13,053 nt of DNA, taken from NCBI GenBank assembly GCA_007136585.1, contig SLGR01000150.1, positions 1-13,053 on the forward strand, given 5' to 3'. The notes beneath the pieces are model-generated. The model was not told where the DNA came from and searched no databases. It saw only the letters and a program-made list of their open reading frames with translations. Below, piece after piece: positions 3,817 through 13,053 of the stretch (positions are counted from its first letter, which is position 1; each line of letters begins with the position of its first letter). The position numbers and the translations under genes were made by a program. Source of the DNA: Candidatus Sumerlaeota bacterium (GTDB lineage Bacteria > CG03 > SLGR01).

Positions 3817-4893
3817 ATGCAAAACACAGACAAGTATCTTAAGGAACTGCTGGTATTAATGAGACAGAAATTTGCCTCGGATCTGCACCTTTCAGTAGGA
3901 ACTCCGCCCTATATAAGGGTGGACGGGGAACTCAGCCCGCTGACTTTCCCTCCCTTGACGGAAGAAGAATGCAAAAGGATGCTTTACAGCATAATGTCCC
4001 GGGAGCTTCTGAGGAAGTTTACATCCAACAAGGTTGTTGATTTTTCCCACGGAGACGAGGAAGCCGGGCGTTTCCGGGTAAATATATACAAGCAGAGGAA
4101 CACGATGGCTGCCGCTATCAGGACAGTATCCGATGAAATCCCCAGCATGGAAGATCTCGGGCTTCCATCCGATGTTATTCAGTCTCTATGCAACCGTCCC
4201 AACGGACTTATTCTCGTTTCCGGTCCGACCGGAAGCGGTAAAACCACCTCTCTTGCTTCAATGATAAATTACATAAACCATACCAGGAGGAGTCATATAC
4301 TTACAATAGAGGATCCCATTGAGTATGTCCATAAGAATGATAACAGCCTTATCCACCAGAGAGAGGTCGGGATTGATACCCTGAGTTTCAGTAACGCTCT
4401 GAAATTCGGGCTGCGGGAGGATCCCGATGTCGTTCTGATAGGAGAGCTTAGGGATCTTGAGACAATACATTCGGCTATAACGATGGCCGAGACCGGACAT
4501 CTCATATTTTCCACGCTCCATACTGGAGAAACTTCGGAATCGCTCCAGCGTATGATCAATGTTTTTCCGGCCGAACAGCAGCAGCAGATAGCTATCCAGC
4601 TTTCATTTACCCTGGTGGGGGTTATAAACCAGCAGCTGCTGCCCCTGAAAGATGGCCCGGGAAGGGTTCTGGCTACCGAGGTTATGGTAGCCACCCCTGC
4701 AGTCAAGAACGTAATAAGAGAGAAGAAACTGGAAAGTGTCTATTCGCATATACAGATAGGCAGCCAGTACGGTATGAAAACAATGAACCAGTCTTTGTAC
4801 GAGCTTGCAAGGTCAGGGAAAGTAACGAAGGAGACGGCGCTCTCAAGGTCTTCAAGAATAAAGGAGCTCGGAAAGCTTATTGAGAAAGCCTGA
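3817..4893 (+). CDS. pilT: PilT, type IV pilus retraction ATPase
   Basis: A 358-residue cytoplasmic hexameric ATPase of the secretion superfamily that drives pilus depolymerisation and twitching. The N-terminal PAS-like domain has the typical ASDLHLSVGTPPYIRVDGEL opening (residues 20-39). Walker A is GPTGSGKT (136-143). The Asp box is LTIEDPIEYVH. Walker B is DPDVVLIGELRD (202-213) with the catalytic Glu210, and the His box is HLIFSTLHT (228-236). The C-terminal part holds the PilT-type segment PAVKNVIREKK, the counterpart of the AIRNLIRE motif, and YGMKTMNQSLYELARSGKV. Length and motif order fit PilT rather than the longer extension ATPase PilB, which has a tetracysteine zinc site not present here. 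A PilU-type accessory retraction ATPase cannot be fully excluded, but the sequence reads as PilT. It is followed 42 bases later by a pilC gene, its expected platform partner. Confidence 0.95.
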   Translation: MQNTDKYLKELLVLMRQKFASDLHLSVGTPPYIRVDGELSPLTFPPLTEEECKRMLYSIMSRELLRKFTSNKVVDFSHGDEEAGRFRVNIYKQRNTMAAAIRTVSDEIPSMEDLGLPSDVIQSLCNRPNGLILVSGPTGSGKTTSLASMINYINHTRRSHILTIEDPIEYVHKNDNSLIHQREVGIDTLSFSNALKFGLREDPDVVLIGELRDLETIHSAITMAETGHLIFSTLHTGETSESLQRMINVFPAEQQQQIAIQLSFTLVGVINQQLLPLKDGPGRVLATEVMVATPAVKNVIREKKLESVYSHIQIGSQYGMKTMNQSLYELARSGKVTKETALSRSSRIKELGKLIEKA

Positions 4894-4935: not shown

Positions 4936-6165
4936 ATGAAAACTTTTATTTATAAAGCCAGGGATCCCGGCGGGAACCTGGTAAAGGGTAATATGGAAGC
5001 GGCTTCACAGAAGGATGTCGCCAGGGCCCTTAATGAGGAAAACCTCATAGCTGTTCAGATATCTGAATACAAGGGAAGAAGACTGAAAAAGAAGAAAAAA
5101 AAGTCTGTAGCCCTTACAGGCAGGGTAAAGGATAAGGATATAGCCGTATTCTGCCGGCAGCTCTCAACGATGATAACCTCGGGAGTGAGCGTGGCTGAGT
5201 CACTTGAGGACCTCTCGCATACTCTTGATAACCCCAAGCTGCGGAAAGCGCTGGCAAAAATACTTGAATCCGTGAGGTCCGGGAGTTCCCTCTCGGACGG
5301 GTTTGCCCAGTACCCGCAGTTTTTCAGCAACCTCTTCGTTCATATGACAAGAGCCGGCGAGGAAAGCGGAAACCTCGGGCTGGTGCTGCGGGATATGTCG
5401 GAGTACCTGGAGAAGAAGGTCAAGCTGGCGGGTCAGCTTAGGTCGGCCAGTATGTACCCGATGTTTGTGGCGGGATTTTTTCTGCTCATAATTACGGCCC
5501 TGGTGCTTTTTCTTATTCCCCAGTTTACCCAGCTTTTTGCCTCCCTGGGGGCCGAGCTTCCTCTCCCTACCAGAATAGTAATGAGGATTAGCGAGATTCT
5601 GGTGCGGAACGCTCCGCTGCTGTTTATTTTACTGGTGCTCCTGGGCTTCGGCGTAAGTATTTTCTATAAGACCCTTCCGGGACGGTTTATTATAGATTCT
5701 CTGAAGCTGAGAGTCCCCATTTTCGGGAATTTGTACCTTAAGATATCGCTTGCGCGGTTTTTTCAGACACTGGCCACATTGCTTAAAAGCGGTGTTGACG
5801 TTGTATCTTCCCTTGATATAGCCTCAAAGGTTGTAAATAACGCCGTGATTGAGGGGAAGGCTAAGAAAATAAGAAAAGGGGTGATAGAAGGGTCAAGTTT
5901 CTCCGAGGAACTGAAAAAAGGCAGGCTTTTTCCGCCTATAACCGTGAGTATGACAGCTGTCGGAGAGAAATCTGGTTCCATTGACCGGATGCTCTTAAAA
6001 GTATCCGATTACTTTACCGATGAGGTTGATACGGAGGTGGAAGGGCTCAGTTCCCTCCTTGAGCCTGTTCTTATTATATCCCTGGGGCTGGTAGTGGGGA
6101 TATTTGTTGTTACTATGTACCTGCCGATATTCCAGATGGCGGGAGCCCTGATGGGAGGGTACTGA
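4936..6165 (+). CDS. pilC: PilC (copy 1), type IV pilus inner-membrane platform protein
   Basis: A 409-residue T2SSF/PilC family protein, the inner-membrane platform on which the PilB and PilT ATPases act to add or remove pilin subunits. The small N-terminal domain (residues 1-43) is followed by a basic linker with six consecutive lysines (51-56). Two T2SSF repeats follow: the first about 68-191 (VFCRQLSTMITSGVS, GEESGNL at 141-147, LRSASMYP) and the second about 271-393 (LARFFQTLATLLKSGVD, GEKSGS at 343-348). Three membrane segments are seen at about 174-194, 226-244 and 374-397, and the conserved end is TMYLPIFQ. No strong SD is seen; AGGA at 4922-4925 is a weak candidate. It matches the second PilC (8637-9866) along its whole length without gaps, at about 53% identity by hand count. 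Confidence 0.93.
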   Translation: MKTFIYKARDPGGNLVKGNMEAASQKDVARALNEENLIAVQISEYKGRRLKKKKKKSVALTGRVKDKDIAVFCRQLSTMITSGVSVAESLEDLSHTLDNPKLRKALAKILESVRSGSSLSDGFAQYPQFFSNLFVHMTRAGEESGNLGLVLRDMSEYLEKKVKLAGQLRSASMYPMFVAGFFLLIITALVLFLIPQFTQLFASLGAELPLPTRIVMRISEILVRNAPLLFILLVLLGFGVSIFYKTLPGRFIIDSLKLRVPIFGNLYLKISLARFFQTLATLLKSGVDVVSSLDIASKVVNNAVIEGKAKKIRKGVIEGSSFSEELKKGRLFPPITVSMTAVGEKSGSIDRMLLKVSDYFTDEVDTEVEGLSSLLEPVLIISLGLVVGIFVVTMYLPIFQMAGALMGGY

Positions 6166-6192: not shown

Positions 6193-7704
6193 ATGAAAAA
6201 AACAAGAGCTGATCTGAAGCGCGAGAACAGTGGGTTTGTCCTTCCGGCCGTAATAACAGCGGTAATAATCCTGACACTGACGGGTCTTGCCTTTGTGTAT
6301 ATGTCGGAAACAAGGAGAATAGAAGTCAATAACCGGATCGCCGCCGCCAGGGCTTTCTGGCTGGCGGAGGCGGGGCTGGAGAGGGGAAAGAGGCTTCTTA
6401 TAAATGAGTTTTCCTTAAGCGGAACCTGGGTCGGGCTGGACGAGATCTCGGGGTATGAGATAGAAAACGGTCCCGATAACGATGAGTTTTACTCTTTCAT
6501 ACCCCCGGAGGAGCTTGGAAACGGAACCTACGAGGTCTCATTGAGAAATATCCCTGACGGAACGGGAGGTTCTGTATCATACCTTATAACCGTAAGATCC
6601 ACCGGGGAATCGGGCGGGGTCAGAAGAACAGTTGAGTCCGAGATAGAGGCGGTTGATTTTGCTCCCGGGGAGTCCTCCATATTCGGCGCCGGAGCCGCCG
6701 GGAACCCCCTGACCGGAAACGTAATTTTGTGCGGTTCCATATACGTGGGCGGAGAGGGGTACGGGGAGGATGATGTGGTATTGGTTATCGGCGGAAATGC
6801 CCGTATATTAAACCATTACGAAAATATAGGAAATACGAATTACATAAAGAATCATATCCCGGAACCTCCTACGGTATTATATAACGGCGTTCCGGTAAAG
6901 ACTCTCAGGTCAAACGTCTGGGTAAGACGGGGAAAGGTTGAGATGAGCGGAACCGGAAGGATAGGCGCAGAGGGCACACCAGACGGCTTCAGGGGTAAGG
7001 TCGATGGAGTATACCTTCCCCGGGGGGAAGATGATTTAGTAAATGAGAGACACATTAATTCCGTCAGGGGGATAGGAAGAAGCACACTTTATGACCCCAT
7101 AGAGTTTCCCGATTCTAACCAGTACAATCAGGAGTTCATCCAGAATCCGGGTACTGTGGTTATACCCGGCCACGTGACAATAAGGCCCGGAGAGATTGTT
7201 ATTACTGAACTCTTTGATCCGGACTATGAATTTGATGAGGATTGTGTAGTTTTCAATATTGATGATTATGATAATTTAATTGTTAACGGCCGGGTTTTCG
7301 TGGAAGGGAACCTTACATTTGAAAGCATAGGCCCCGCCGCCCCCATCTGGTATTCTGGAAGAGGAACGATACTCGCAAACGGGACAGCGGAGATAAGAAA
7401 CAGTATTGTTACCACTAATTTCCGCGTTACAAATATACTTGCCCTTATAACCGAGGGCGATATAAAATGGAACGCGCCTCATCTGGAAGTAATGGGAGTA
7501 TTGTACTCGCACAGCGGTATAGAAGTATCCAATCCTGGTGGGAGGCTTGCCGGGTCAATAGGAACAAGCGGGGATTTTACTGTAAATAACCCTTTTACAA
7601 TATACCAGGTCCCTAACCTCTCCGGACACCTCTCCCAGCACATAGTGGCTTACACGCACAGCTGGCGTCCTATGGCAAACAGCTGGAGACTGGTGACTGA
7701 ATGA
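6193..7704 (+). CDS. large PilX/GspK-like minor prepilin with beta-rich C-terminal domain
   Basis: A 503-residue protein with a class III (prepilin) signal. A basic leader ends in ENSG14, followed by FVLPAVITAVIILTLTGLAF, so PilD-type cleavage after Gly14 is expected. Position +5 of the mature protein is Ala, not the usual Glu. Loss of Glu+5 is typical of GspK and of PilX-like tip subunits. The motif ARAFWLAEAGLERG (52-65) is the PilX N-terminal signature. The remaining ~400 residues are unusually large for a pilin: rich in Gly, Asn and Val with many short strands (for example NGRVFVEGNLTFES and GTILANGTAEIRNSIVT). They read like a beta-helix or bactofilin-like fold (inference). Only two cysteines were noted in this part (VILCGS and DEDCVVF). 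Probably an inner-membrane-assembled subunit displayed at the tip of the pilus or pseudopilus. Its stop overlaps the next prepilin gene (ATGA, 7701-7704). Confidence 0.75.
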   Translation: MKKTRADLKRENSGFVLPAVITAVIILTLTGLAFVYMSETRRIEVNNRIAAARAFWLAEAGLERGKRLLINEFSLSGTWVGLDEISGYEIENGPDNDEFYSFIPPEELGNGTYEVSLRNIPDGTGGSVSYLITVRSTGESGGVRRTVESEIEAVDFAPGESSIFGAGAAGNPLTGNVILCGSIYVGGEGYGEDDVVLVIGGNARILNHYENIGNTNYIKNHIPEPPTVLYNGVPVKTLRSNVWVRRGKVEMSGTGRIGAEGTPDGFRGKVDGVYLPRGEDDLVNERHINSVRGIGRSTLYDPIEFPDSNQYNQEFIQNPGTVVIPGHVTIRPGEIVITELFDPDYEFDEDCVVFNIDDYDNLIVNGRVFVEGNLTFESIGPAAPIWYSGRGTILANGTAEIRNSIVTTNFRVTNILALITEGDIKWNAPHLEVMGVLYSHSGIEVSNPGGRLAGSIGTSGDFTVNNPFTIYQVPNLSGHLSQHIVAYTHSWRPMANSWRLVTE

Positions 7705-8066
7705 TAAGGATGATGAAAGACCCCGGCCTGACTCTTTCGGAAGTTATAATCGGGCTGGTTATATTCAGTACAGTGGTTGTCTCGGGGCTTTATTTTTTTG
7801 TGACAGGCGCGGATTTCATTGAGAGGGCTTCAAGAAAAGAGACGGGTCTTAATATCGCTACGGCCCGTATTGAACGCCTGAGGGGAGATGATTACGAAGA
7901 CGTGGAGACCTCGGGGCCGTTTAATTTAAACGTAAACGGTACGGAGTACCAGGTTTCCGTTACTGTGGCAGAGGATACATCTGAAAACCTTAAAGAGGTT
8001 AACGTGACGGTCAGCTTTGATGACGGCGGACGGGAAGTAACCCTGGACTCCATTATAATACATTAA
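7701..8066 (+). CDS. small PilV/GspI-like minor prepilin
   Basis: A 121-residue prepilin-like protein. The short leader ends in KDPG9, followed by LTLSEVIIGLVIFSTVVVSG. The mature protein would begin with Leu rather than Phe and keeps Glu at +5. The first hydrophobic helix runs to about residue 30. A charged helix follows (RKETGLNIATARIERLRGDDY, typical of GspI/PilV-like proteins), then a small beta domain (EYQVSVTVAEDT, NVTVSFDDGGREVTLDSI). The length of about 120 residues fits GspI-type minor pseudopilins. Three in-frame ATGs (7701, 7710, 7713) are possible starts; 7701 gives the ATGA overlap with the large prepilin gene and 7713 the shortest leader. No clear SD is seen, so translation is probably coupled to the upstream gene. 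Likely a member of the same tip complex as the genes on either side. Confidence 0.8.
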   Translation: MIRMMKDPGLTLSEVIIGLVIFSTVVVSGLYFFVTGADFIERASRKETGLNIATARIERLRGDDYEDVETSGPFNLNVNGTEYQVSVTVAEDTSENLKEVNVTVSFDDGGREVTLDSIIIH

Positions 8067-8070
8067 AAGA

Positions 8071-8559
8071 ATGTTTTTAAGTAAAGATAGCGGGTTTACC
8101 CTTACCGAGTTTCTGGTGGCTTTTCTTATAAGCACATTCATACTCGTAACCGTAGGAATCATCATAAGCGATGCTTTTGTTAGCTGGGGGCGCGGGGAAA
8201 GAAAAGTCGCGCTTGACAGGGAATCCGCTTACGCGGTTATGACTATAGAAAGAGTTGTGCGGGAAAGCTCTGATTCACAGGTATCTGAAGACGAATCCGC
8301 GCTTGAGTTATATCTGGGAGGAAATGAGACGGGACGGTTCTGGGTTGAGGACGAGACCCTGCGGGCAAGTTTCGGAGGCGGAGATGCTTTTAACCTTACG
8401 GAGGAACGGGTGGAAAATTTTATTTTCGCCCTTGATGAGGAGCAGAGGACTGTAACTATAACAGAACTTACTCTTTTTCGCGAGGAGGAGTCCGCCAGGA
8501 GGTTCCCGTATCTTTCTTCAACAGTCTCTTCTACGACGCGACACCGTATTGACTGGTAG
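8071..8559 (+). CDS. PilW/GspJ-like minor prepilin
   Basis: A 162-residue prepilin-like protein. The leader MFLSKDSG8 is followed by FTLTEFLVAFLISTFILVTV, a textbook cleavage site with Phe at +1 and Glu at +5. After the helix comes SWGRGERKVALDRESAYAVMTIERVVRES (residues 38-66), the charged helix usual in PilW/GspJ-type proteins (Arg/Glu-rich with 'IERVVRES'). It is followed by beta strands (ALELYLGGNETGRFWVEDETL and a VTITELTLF strand near the end) and a C-terminal tail of Arg-His-Arg-Ile-Asp-Trp. It starts four bases after the previous stop. With the two genes before it, it completes a GspK-I-J-like (PilX-V-W-like) set; I assign family level only, since small pilins diverge quickly. Confidence 0.8.
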   Translation: MFLSKDSGFTLTEFLVAFLISTFILVTVGIIISDAFVSWGRGERKVALDRESAYAVMTIERVVRESSDSQVSEDESALELYLGGNETGRFWVEDETLRASFGGGDAFNLTEERVENFIFALDEEQRTVTITELTLFREEESARRFPYLSSTVSSTTRHRIDW

Positions 8560-8636: not shown

Positions 8637-9866
8637 ATGCCAATTTACGAATATGAAGCAAGAAACCGTTTCGGGGAGCTGGTAAAGGGCAGGAAAACAG
8701 CCGATACCCAAAAGGAGCTGGTTCAGGCGCTTTCGGATGAGAACCTTCTTGTGGTTCGTATTAACGAGGCAAAGACAAAGAAAGACTCTAAAGGGAAAAA
8801 AGAACCCGAGGGGCTTTTTGAGAGGGTAAGCGACAGGGATGTAGCTGTTTTCTGCCGCCAGTTCTCTACAATGATATCCGCCGGGGTGAGCGTTTCGGAA
8901 GCCCTGGATCAACTTTCAATGGCCATAGATAACAGTAAGCTGAAAAGGGTTCTCGGAGATGTTCTTGAGCAGGTTCAGACCGGTCACTCTCTCTCCGAAT
9001 CATTTGCAAGGTACCCGTCGGTTTTCAGCGGTCTCTTTACTCAAATGATATCGGCTGCGGAAGAGAGCGGACAGCTCTCAGATACCCTCAGCGAACTGGC
9101 AGAATACCTGGAAAAGAAAGTAAAACTGAGAAACCAGCTCCGGTCTGCAAGTATGTATCCTATTTTCATAGGACTTTTCTTTGTAGCCGTACTTTTCGGA
9201 ATCATTTTTTTCCTGATACCCCGTTTCAGGGAACTATTTGACTCTCTTGGCGGAACCCTGCCGGCAACAACCCAGGCGGTGGTATCGGTAAGTGATTTTA
9301 TGATAGGTAATTTTCTTCTTCTTTTCGGGTTAGCGGCCGTTTTGATAGCAGCCCTGGTAATGGGAGGCAGAACAAAGAAGGGCCGGACTTTCATAGATGC
9401 GGTTAAGCTCAAAGTTCCTATCTTTGGTGATATTGTCCTTAAGGTCATACTGGCCAGGTTTTTTCAGACCTTCGCTGCGCTGATGAAAAGCGGGGTTGAT
9501 ATAGTCGCTTCGCTTGATATAGCGGGAAAGGTTGCCCGCAACATAGGTGTTGAAGAGACGGTAATGAAAATGAAGTTTGGTATTGTGGAAGGGTCCAGCC
9601 TTTCCGATGAGATGGAGAAGAGCGATCTTTTCCCGTGGCTGGCGGTCTGTATGACCTCTGTCGGAGAAAAATCAGGATCTTTATATGAGATGCTGCTTAA
9701 AATATCGGAGTATTATACAGAGGAGGTTGACGCACAGATAGACGGGTTAAGCACCCTGATAGAACCCGTGATGATAATTACTCTCGGTCTTGTTGTCGGC
9801 TTTTTCGTTATAACAATGTACCTGCCGATTTTTCAGCTGGCCGGTGCCGTCATGACCGGCGGTTAG
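8637..9866 (+). CDS. pilC: PilC (copy 2), type IV pilus / type II secretion platform protein
   Basis: A second 409-residue T2SSF-family platform protein. The N-terminal domain (1-43) is followed by a Lys/Glu linker of about 46-62 that lacks the hexalysine of copy 1. The first T2SSF repeat is about 68-191 (VFCRQFSTMISAGVSVSEAL, EESGQL, QLRSASMYP) and the second about 271-393 (LARFFQTFAALMKSGVD, GEKSGS at 343-348). The conserved end is TMYLPIFQ. Membrane segments match those of copy 1. The two proteins align residue for residue with no gap and about 217 of 409 identities by hand count. Divergence is highest in the N-terminal domain, the linker and the segment 211-250 around the central membrane helix, which might separate ATPase or pilin partners (inference). 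It lies just after the three minor prepilin genes and before a receiver-domain gene. Confidence 0.93.
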   Translation: MPIYEYEARNRFGELVKGRKTADTQKELVQALSDENLLVVRINEAKTKKDSKGKKEPEGLFERVSDRDVAVFCRQFSTMISAGVSVSEALDQLSMAIDNSKLKRVLGDVLEQVQTGHSLSESFARYPSVFSGLFTQMISAAEESGQLSDTLSELAEYLEKKVKLRNQLRSASMYPIFIGLFFVAVLFGIIFFLIPRFRELFDSLGGTLPATTQAVVSVSDFMIGNFLLLFGLAAVLIAALVMGGRTKKGRTFIDAVKLKVPIFGDIVLKVILARFFQTFAALMKSGVDIVASLDIAGKVARNIGVEETVMKMKFGIVEGSSLSDEMEKSDLFPWLAVCMTSVGEKSGSLYEMLLKISEYYTEEVDAQIDGLSTLIEPVMIITLGLVVGFFVITMYLPIFQLAGAVMTGG

Positions 9867-9907: not shown

Positions 9908-10267
9908 ATGGGAAAAAATATACTGATAGCGGATGATAACGTCAAGTTCTGTAATTCAGCGGAAATGATTCTTAAGAAAGAAGGGTACGAGGTTGATACC
10001 GCCCATAACGGGGAAGAGGCCCTCAAGAAGATGAAGGATAAGAAATATGATGCCGTGCTGCTGGATATAATTATGCCCGTCCTTACCGGGCTGGATACCT
10101 GTCAGAAAATTAAAAAGGACAGAAAACTCCGGGATACCATCGTAATAATGCTCTCAGGAAATGTTACGGAGATAGAGATAAGTTTTGATTACGGAGCGGA
10201 CGACTGTTTTCTCAAGCCCGTGGACTGGCAGAAGGTCCTTGAGAGAATGAGCTCCCTTATAAATTAA
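9908..10267 (+). CDS. stand-alone CheY-like receiver (response regulator)
   Basis: A 119-residue single receiver domain with no output domain. The key residues are present: acidic pair Asp9-Asp10, phosphoacceptor Asp53 (in YDAVLLDIIMP), Ser83 in MLSGN at the Thr/Ser switch position, and Lys103 in CFLKPVDW. The DIIMPVLTGLD segment and the YGADDCFLKPVD end are standard for the REC fold. It would accept phosphate from a histidine kinase, presumably the kinase encoded just downstream (inference), and act by protein-protein contact, as PilG/PilH or CheY do. The strong SD before it contrasts with the poor initiation regions of the two kinase genes. A partner in controlling the pilus motors is plausible from context but not shown by the sequence. 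Confidence 0.9.
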   Translation: MGKNILIADDNVKFCNSAEMILKKEGYEVDTAHNGEEALKKMKDKKYDAVLLDIIMPVLTGLDTCQKIKKDRKLRDTIVIMLSGNVTEIEISFDYGADDCFLKPVDWQKVLERMSSLIN

Positions 10268-10334
10268 TAAATATACCCGGTTTCCGCCCGGCCTGTACGC
10301 TATTGTCAGTTCCAAACCATTCAGTTAAAAACAA

Positions 10335-12143
10335 ATGAACATCTTTTCATTAGTTAATTATACAGCGTTTATGCTGTATGTATGGCTCCTGGTATTTGTA
10401 TTAAGGAAAAATCCCCGCTCAAGGCTCAATATCTCCTGCGCTCTTTTCATACTCTGCTTTGCAGTATGGAATTTCGGAGGGACCTTTATGAGGAGCGCTG
10501 AGAGCGCGAACCGGGCTATGATGTGGCAGAGCATAAGTTCTTTCGGATGGATCGGGTTCTCAGCTGTTTTTCTATGGCATACTCTGATCTTTACCGGGAA
10601 AACCAGGATCTCAAAGAACCCCCTTTTATGTATCTTTCTTTTTTTAATTCCCGCTCTGCTGATAACACGGCAGTGGCAGGGGTACCTCATAAATGATTTT
10701 GTAAAGCGCCCTTTCGGATGGAATAATATCTGGTCGGATACTTTCTGGCCCGCGGTTTTCTATGTATATTACATATCTTTTATTATGATATCTCTTCTGC
10801 TGCTGTTAAGATACAAAAAAAGGGCTCTTAATCCTCCCTTAAGGAAACAGGCTTCAATAATAATCAACTCTACCGTTATATATGTAGTTCTTGGGACCGC
10901 TACTGATGTTTTCTTTCCCCAGATAGGGTATTACCGTGTCCCGCCTCTGGGATCGGTCTTCACCCTTATATGGGCGGGAGGTCTTGTCCTTGCGATTACG
11001 AAATACGGTCTGATGAGCATTACCCCTGCTGCTGCCGCGGAGGATATACTGGAATCAATGGCCGATTCACTTGTTCTCATAGATCCGAAAGGGAGGATAG
11101 CCGCCCTTAATAAAGCTGCCTGCCGGATGACGGGTTACCGTGAAAAAGAGCTTAAGGGGAAACCCGTGGATATTATCTTCAGCCAGAAGGGGGGATTTTT
11201 TGAGAGCCCGGTCTTCAGGAAACTTCTAAACGAGGGGGTAACTTATGAGAGTAAGGTAACCTACCTTACCCGGGAAGGCCTGGAAATACCGGTTTCCTTT
11301 TCTGGTTCCCTTATGAGGGATAAATCCGGCTCTGTTATAGGAATAGTGGGTATAGCCCGGGATATGAGGGAATCTATAAGAAAGAAAAGACAGCTGGAGG
11401 AACTTTACCGGTACCAGGCCGATATAAGGGAGAGGCTGGTCAAGGCCCGAATGCAGGAGAAGATAGCCAGGAACGAGAAACTGGCAATGGTGGGAAGACT
11501 CGCGGGTTCCGTGAGTCACGAGATAAGAACCCCTCTTGCCAGTATACGGAACGCGGCTTTTTACCTTGAAAAATACGGCAGCATTGAAGATGAAGAATCA
11601 AAAAAATTCCTGGATATTATGCTGAGCGAGACAAAACAGGTGGAAGAGATTGTTCACTCCCTGCTTGATTTTTCACGTACAACGGAAATAAATATATCGG
11701 AAGTTGACATATCCGAAGTGCTTGATAAGGCAATAGCCTCAGTTAAGGAAGATAAAGATATAGAGTATATAAAAGAAATATCTCCCGATGCTGCTACGAT
11801 AAAAGCAGATCCGCTTAAATTGGGTCAGCTTCTGGGAAACCTTGTGAGAAACGCAGCCCAGGCTATTGGAGAAAAGGGTAGTATTACCGTAAGTTCATAT
11901 ACTGCAAACTCTTCCCATATAATAAAAGTTTCCGATACAGGCGAGGGTATGGATGACGAGACTCTTGATAAGATATTTGAACCTCTTTTTACCACCAAGT
12001 CAAGCGGTATAGGTCTGGGGATGGCTATTGTCAGGGATATAATAGAAGCTCACGGCTGGTCCATAGAGGTAAAAAGCGAGAAGGGAAAGGGGACGGAGTT
12101 TATCATAAAGGCCGGGCGCATCGGGGATAAAGTTTCTGAATAA
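10335..12143 (+). CDS. 7TM-PAS sensor histidine kinase (copy 1)
   Basis: A 602-residue membrane histidine kinase. The N-terminal ~225 residues hold seven hydrophobic segments (about 7-24, 34-52, 69-88, 97-113, 140-160, 176-195, 205-222), matching the 7TM N-terminal histidine kinase region. A PAS domain follows at about 235-345 ([20 protein letters not shown] and GIARDMRE). A HisKA helix has phosphoacceptor His395 in [20 protein letters not shown]. The HATPase domain has N-box Asn506 ([13 protein letters not shown]), DTGEGM (534-539) and GIGLGMAIV (558-566). It would sense a membrane or envelope cue and phosphorylate a receiver, perhaps the one encoded just before it. The start at 10335 is supported by the paralogue downstream, which aligns from its first residue (MNI), and by an in-frame stop at 10326-10328. 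No SD is visible. A PilS-like role is possible; no DNA-binding PilR partner is in view. Confidence 0.93.
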
Positions 12144-12155
12144 TAAACAGGCGGT

Positions 12156-13053
12156 ATGAATATCCTTCCTGTCCTTCACTTAACAGCTGCGTTAATATAT
12201 ATTAATCTGGTCGTTTTTGTCCTTTCAAAGAACCCGAGATCACCGGTTAATATTGTGAGTTCTCTTTTTATATTATGCTTTGCAGTATGGAATTTCGGCG
12301 ATGCCCTGCTGCATTTTTCTCAGGATAGAAGCATTGCTATGTTCTGGGAGAATATGGGTTCATTCGGGTGGATAGGGTTTGCCGGTTTTTTTCTCTGGCA
12401 GACAGCCGTTCTTACCGGAAGAAAAAAACTGCTGAAAAGTTTTCTTTTTTATCTGGCGGTATTTGCGGTCCCTGCTGTACTGATTTACGCGCAGTGGACG
12501 GGACGTCTCATAAACGACCTGGTCAGGCAGCCTTACGGCTGGGGGGTGGTCTGGTCAGAATCATTCTGGACCGTTTCTTATTACATTTATTATGTGACAT
12601 ACATAATTGTTTCTTTTTTACTGCTTCTTAATTACAGGAGAAAAACCGGGCACCGCTACAGACAAAAACAGGCGGCGGTAATTATCCTTACGGCTTCTGT
12701 TGTAGCTATAGCCGGAACTGTAACCAACGTGGCCCTTCCCCAGTTAGGAAACTACGATCTTCCGCCTGTTGCTCCGCTTCTCTCGCTCATATGGGCCGGA
12801 GGTCTGACGCTGGCGGTGACAAAATACGGGCTGATGAGTATAAATCCGGCAACGGCGGCATCGGATATAATAGCTACTATGGCCGATGCTCTTCTCCTCT
12901 TAAATCCTGAGGGAAATATTGCCGAAGTAAACACTGCGGCGGAAACGCTTCTGGGGTACAGACGCGTTGAGCTGCTCGGACGTCCGGTTGAAATGATATT
13001 ATCTTCCGGGTCCAGTCTTTTTAAAGGACCGGAGTTTGAAAAGCTTTTTGAGA
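12156..13053 (+). CDS. 7TM-PAS sensor histidine kinase (copy 2), truncated by window edge
   Basis: The frame runs from ATG 12156 to the right edge with no stop (299 codons). It aligns from residue 1 to 299 with the preceding kinase with no gap and about 143 identities (48%) by hand count. The seven membrane segments are conserved, with the motif C41-F-A-V-W-N-F-G48 at the same position in both and IWAGGL and TKYGLMSI near 212-230. A PAS domain begins at about 236 (MADALLLLNPEGNIAEVNTAAETLLGYRR) and is cut. The HisKA and HATPase parts must lie beyond 13053 if the gene is intact; this cannot be confirmed here. It begins 12 bases after the previous stop, so it is cotranscribed. GGCGG at 12150-12154 is too close to the ATG to be a good SD. 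The two linked paralogues suggest a local tandem duplication. Confidence 0.88.
   Translation, partial: MNILPVLHLTAALIYINLVVFVLSKNPRSPVNIVSSLFILCFAVWNFGDALLHFSQDRSIAMFWENMGSFGWIGFAGFFLWQTAVLTGRKKLLKSFLFYLAVFAVPAVLIYAQWTGRLINDLVRQPYGWGVVWSESFWTVSYYIYYVTYIIVSFLLLLNYRRKTGHRYRQKQAAVIILTASVVAIAGTVTNVALPQLGNYDLPPVAPLLSLIWAGGLTLAVTKYGLMSINPATAASDIIATMADALLLLNPEGNIAEVNTAAETLLGYRRVELLGRPVEMILSSGSSLFKGPEFEKLFE

Follow-up and report, generated by a model that had tools for sequence, protein, structure and literature searches.

The gene at positions 6193-7704 of the DNA analysed here (a stretch of 13,053 nucleotides, called the window below) encodes a protein of the ComZ family. Its 503-amino-acid product is a full-length homologue of ComZ from Thermus thermophilus (PDB 6QVI). 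It is probably the ligand-binding tip of a retractable pilus, and as such a cousin of the ComZ DNA receptor, though one that is unlikely to hold DNA in the same manner.

ComZ itself is a GspK-like minor pilin that holds a beta-solenoid between its last two pilin strands, and it has been argued on structural grounds to be the pilin at the pilus tip (PMC6561018). In the literature examined, ComZ is described from Thermus only. What is new here is the membership of this lineage in the family, the broader spread of that family, and the absence of the lysines associated with DNA.

The gene and its neighbors

The open reading frame (P0001) starts with ATG and encodes 503 amino acids without an internal stop. 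As judged from sequence comparison, it is a genuine gene, because a genome from another genus of the same family (G001) carries a full-length homologue, and because the frame overlaps the next pilin gene. The homologue is the best relative (36% identity over residues 11-501, E 4e-84), and it lies on a contig apparently identical to one deposited under the name of an Elusimicrobia MAG. The features of the region are as follows.

3817..4893, + strand: pilT, retraction ATPase of the PilT/PilU family (TIGR01420, 466 bits against a cut-off of 319)
4936..6165, + strand: pilC, first copy, platform protein (PF00482; PilC models below equivalog cut-offs)
6193..7704, + strand: ComZ-like beta-solenoid minor pilin, 503 aa (ORF, homology, AF2 model, fold search)
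6193..6234, + strand: class III prepilin leader, residues 1-14, with Gly at its end before F-V-L-P-A (sequence; putative cleavage)
6238..6420, + strand: long N-terminal pilin helix, residues 16-76 (AF2 model)
6445..6657, + strand: pilin beta-strands, residues 85-155 (AF2 model)
6547..6549, + strand: Asn119, aligned to ComZ Lys98 (12-member alignment, deduced numbering)
6655..7617, + strand: inserted beta-solenoid, residues ~155-475, with the topology of DUF3494 ice-binding proteins (AF2 model, fold search)
7003..7005, + strand: Asp271, aligned to ComZ Lys233 (12-member alignment)
7663..7695, + strand: final strand of the pilin, residues 491-501, which contains the conserved Trp498 (AF2 model, 12-member alignment)
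7701..8066, + strand: GspI-like minor pilin that has Glu5 and is the probable partner (TIGR01707, E 2e-5, below cut-off)
8071..8559, + strand: minor pilin of the GspJ/PilW kind, with Glu5 (N_methyl E 2.7e-4, marginally under the cut-off; its counterpart in the same place in G001 is 40% identical)
8637..9866, + strand: pilC, second copy (PF00482; PilC models below equivalog cut-offs)

These genes form a tight run on one strand, in the order pilT-pilC-comZ-like-gspI-like-gspJ-like-pilC, with small gaps and with a four-base overlap between the ComZ-like gene and the next pilin gene. The original prediction asked how often homologues sit beside pilC and pilT. In G001, the order from pilT through the first pilC and the homologue to the I- and J-like pilins is the same. 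In Thermus, the partner of ComZ is PilA2, which is GspI-like; the GspI-like pilin at 7701-8066 is, by analogy, the probable partner of the ComZ-like pilin. The wider setting differs. Thermus comZ lies at the pilA1-pilA4 locus, whereas the window gene lies with pilT and two copies of pilC, which flank the pilin cassette.

Directly 3' of the pilus genes (9908-13053) are a response regulator (Response_reg) and then two tandem open reading frames that resemble histidine kinases, as assigned by reading the sequence rather than by family search.

The N-terminus

The protein begins with the charged leader KKTRADLKRENSG^FVLPA..., in which Gly14 is the last residue and is followed by a hydrophobic helix. 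An alignment of family members shows Gly14 to be invariant in all 12. Residue 5 of the mature protein is Ala, and a Glu at this position is found in none of the 12 family N-termini, as read by eye from the alignment. This absence appears compatible with a pilin at the tip, where Glu5 seems dispensable, because ComZ and GspK also lack Glu at mature position 5.

The N-terminus had been described as PilX-type. A prepilin leader and helix lacking Glu5 are indeed present, and homologues of the protein match Pfam PilX_N (PF14341), albeit below the cut-off; the protein itself gives no PilX_N match at E 1. Thus, the kinship with PilX comes by way of the homologues. Searches of Pfam and NCBIfam with the 503-residue protein returned no useful family name.

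Homology to ComZ

A phmmer search against all PDB sequences gave ComZ (E 2.5e-8) as the sole match below E 1. A profile was then matched to the PDB from which the Thermus row was left out, because circularity was to be avoided. Its four rows were the window protein, its G001 homologue, a protein from a MAG labelled Clostridia (L014) and one from G039. This profile matched ComZ with E 3.4e-24 over positions 45-489 of 529; the next entry stood at 0.085. A far stronger match (E 3e-161) was discarded as circular, as the profile that gave it held a Thermus sequence. A profile of the solenoid only, built from an alignment that did include Thermus, found new members outside that alignment, including the L014 protein (E 2.6e-51) and one from an Acidobacteriota (5.8e-17).

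The window protein is only 21-22% identical to its Thermus homologues. What it shares with ComZ is homology over the full length, the invariant leader Gly, the lack of Glu5, a GspK-like fold with an inserted solenoid, and a GspI-like neighbor.

The predicted structure

A template-free AF2 model was obtained from six aligned sequences, two of them Thermus ComZ, and is of medium confidence (pLDDT 72, pTM 0.70); from the single sequence, AF2 gave an unusable model (pLDDT 33). In the model, solenoid strands span residues 177-471, after which the strand at 491-501 rejoins the pilin sheet. The solenoid is therefore predicted to be an insertion between the penultimate and the last strand, rather than a C-terminal tail, and the order of strands agrees with that described for ComZ.

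Fold comparison points the same way. Foldseek placed ComZ first by a wide margin (E 7e-14), and VIA aligned ComZ (6QVI) with residues 49-503 of the model (Z 27.5, 392 residues). The rmsd over the whole chain is 12 A, which may come from the relative placement of the domains. The training cut-off of AF2 is earlier than the release of 6QVI in May 2019; the match to ComZ is therefore unlikely to be AF2 memory.

The next neighbors of the solenoid are the DUF3494 ice-binding proteins (Z 13.7-15.8, rmsd 2.6-3.6 A, 182-205 residues, 9-14% identity), a neighbor fold that the authors of the ComZ structure also reported (PMC6561018). These share the topology of the solenoid but have no pilin part, and ice binding by the window protein is unsupported. 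The C-terminal domains of Caldicellulosiruptor tapirins (4WA0, 6N2B) share a beta-helix core (Z 9.8-10.2, 194-198 residues). Tapirins attach cells to lignocellulose (PMC9933333); their resemblance to the window solenoid is one of fold only, with no sequence match reported. The solenoids of pectate lyase and tailspike, on which an enzymatic role would be modelled, reach Z 4-5 only.

Thus, the parallel beta-solenoid proposed from composition and strand pattern is borne out by the model and by its two best classes of match (ComZ at Z 27.5, ice-binding solenoids at about 15). The further suggestion that it might be bactofilin-like fares less well: bactofilin 6RIA aligns over 88 residues only (Z 5.7), far under the ice-binding folds, and there is no bactofilin match in Pfam. 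The beta-rich body behind the N-terminus is oversized, as had been said, but the solenoid accounts for about 320 residues (155-475) rather than some 400, the rest being the pilin strands at 85-155 and 491-501. A plain alpha-helical insertion of the GspK kind, the outcome that would have told against a solenoid, was looked for with the model and the fold search and was not found; as a candidate for the module it is rejected on the strength of the predicted solenoid and its fold matches. Together with the adjacent GspI- and GspJ-like pilins, pilT and pilC, the full-length homology to ComZ supports the view of this protein as an oversized tip pilin.

The modular pilin is an established concept, and ComZ is one of its known cases (PMC8179133; PMC13234629). 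PilB and PilC of Streptococcus sanguinis likewise place a bulky functional module on a small pilin module (PMC8179133). The module of PilB, however, is C-terminal and sits on a loop (PMC8179133), while that of the window protein lies inside the pilin sheet. The tip minor pilins of the GspK/PilX kind are likewise oversized, lack Glu5 and sit beside I- and J-like pilins. Here, it is the insertion that differs: alpha-helical in GspK, a beta-solenoid in the window protein.

How the tip might work

From homology, gene order and predicted fold, we infer cleavage, tip position, ligand and coupling to retraction. Prepilin peptidase would cleave the ComZ-like protein, whose long helix would then pair up with those of the neighboring GspI- and GspJ-like pilins, giving the tip complex that initiates a type IV pilus, a step modelled on GspI/J/K and on ComZ/PilA2. 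These three proteins would assemble before the rest of the fiber. The solenoid of about 320 residues, whose place between the penultimate and the final strand of that sheet-forming pilin domain is supported by the model and by homology, would be too bulky for the body of the fiber, and would be displayed at its tip. PilC and an extension motor would push the fiber outward; the solenoid would bind an extracellular ligand, and PilT, encoded next door, would then retract the pilus. The preferred guess for the ligand is a surface polymer or a polysaccharide.

Is the ligand DNA?

The obvious alternative is that the protein functions as ComZ does, as a tip receptor for DNA in natural transformation, here by way of other residues. 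Full-length homology and a shared architecture are what such a receptor would have. Further, the ComEC domain is present in 10 of the 12 carriers examined, including the window genome. The window genome has DprA, ComEA-like HhH proteins and the N-terminal part of a ComEC cut by a contig end. In ComZ, however, the lysines protected by DNA are K98 and K233 (PMC6561018), and the 12-member alignment has neither in the window protein, where they are replaced by Asn119 and Asp271. (The positions of these lysines in 6QVI were set with an offset of two residues; this deduced numbering fits Asn71 and Ala301 of the paper and does not fit Asn39 and Glu216, which are also named there.) Outside Thermus, the K98 position holds N, A, E, D or S and the K233 position holds Asp in 7 of 10 members; neither is basic in any of the 10. 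The genome with the closest homologue, G001, is 97% complete, and in it ComEC was absent by domain and by protein query and no ComEA match was found. Conversely, all 14 genomes of the phylum without a ComZ-like protein still have ComEC. The soluble part of the protein is acidic (pI 4.7), a point that weighs less against DNA because the neighboring pilins are equally acidic.

DNA binding may persist despite the loss of two lysines, because ComZ itself binds DNA without an obvious positive patch and other residues are likely to be involved (PMC6561018). Nevertheless, with those lysines missing, it is unlikely that the window protein holds DNA in the manner of ComZ, or serves as such a receptor. 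Its membership in the ComZ family is a matter of descent, and is unaffected by their absence.

Two readings in which no pilus tip is involved are much less probable. The protein might be the tip pseudopilin of a pseudopilus like that of type II secretion, with a solenoid that engages secreted substrates. The GspI-like partner would fit, as would the finding that GspK is nearest to the pilin domain of ComZ (PMC6561018). Yet the pilT nearby is a strong match to TIGR01420, and the lone secretin match of the window genome lies in one cluster, on a separate contig, with pilM, pilN and pilO, parts of a type IV pilus; a pseudopilus is thus highly improbable. Alternatively, the protein might be a surface protein that is never assembled, anchored in the membrane by a borrowed pilin-like helix. 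The missing Glu5 and PilX_N match would suit this. A prepilin peptidase was not found in the window's draft genome (88% complete), which would suit it too and counts against the pilus-tip reading. Against it, the proposed tip pilins ComZ and GspK also lack Glu5, Gly14 is invariant across the family, the gene stands between pilC and the I- and J-like pilins, and G001 does have a prepilin peptidase. This reading is very improbable.

Two genomes, G003 (contig C54) and G007 (contig C11), have tandem HhH (ComEA-like) proteins and, some 10 kb away, a second ComEC-like protein of about 985 amino acids. The window genome (G000) also carries such a protein, on contig C214.

Distribution among bacteria

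Relatives of the ComZ-like protein are sparse across several bacterial lineages. Among 386 genomes across Bacteria, roughly a dozen, which belong to seven families, have a hit that extends over the solenoid section of the search model with E below 1e-12; one Acidobacteriota and the Clostridia-labelled MAG L014 are further carriers. In genome contigs, a scan with the single protein came back empty and a scan based on the alignment recovered the relatives. In the window's phylum, 2 of 16 genomes have the protein. Deep branching in the family tree is poorly supported.

The surroundings of the gene vary. GspI/GspJ-like pilins adjoin it in G039, G061, G156 and Thermus; pilM-pilN and the genes that follow adjoin it in L014, G124 and G259. 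A rare arrangement, with neither kind of neighbor, is found in G203. The gene of G156 (L134) is interrupted by one in-frame TAG, and this genome, 99% complete, also lacks ComEC. In G385 (L130:188-5971), an open reading frame of 1927 amino acids with a prepilin N-terminus that has Glu5 lies directly upstream of the ComZ-like gene.

Thus, the architecture of ComZ occurs in a candidate phylum and in other lineages without the DNA lysines, and once, in a near-complete genome, without the channel for DNA import. From this pattern of recurrence, the solenoid tip would seem to be a general means of grasping, for which the capture of DNA is one use.

Possible exchange of tip modules

Exchange of tip modules seems common in the window's phylum, because other pilins without Glu5 in that phylum carry Lcl_C or a PQQ-type propeller in place of the solenoid. 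A broader, tentative hypothesis, perhaps somewhat short of an even chance, is that solenoid tip pilins make up a broad but sparse family, so far undescribed, in which Thermus ComZ represents one DNA-binding branch and most members bind something else, and that in this phylum one kind of pilin base accepts exchangeable modules (the ComZ-type solenoid, Lcl_C, the PQQ-propeller, other repeats). Were this true, one genome could build pili with different tips.

Contig C9 of the window genome (L079:1-1140) encodes a PilX/GspK-type pilin without Glu5 that has an Lcl_C (DUF1566) module; it adjoins I- and J-like pilins and a gene resembling that of a major pilin, a second tip cassette in this genome. 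A pilin of the same type and module is found in G002 (L082:2524-4014). In G003 (L083:2459-4876), a PilX-type pilin of 805 amino acids, also without Glu5, carries a PQQ/beta-propeller module. Most other genomes of the phylum (L085, L086, L087, L088, L089, L091, L093, L094, L095) have a PilX-type pilin with an "SNV"-rich repeat, which is probably another solenoid and usually comes with an SWQE-like last strand.
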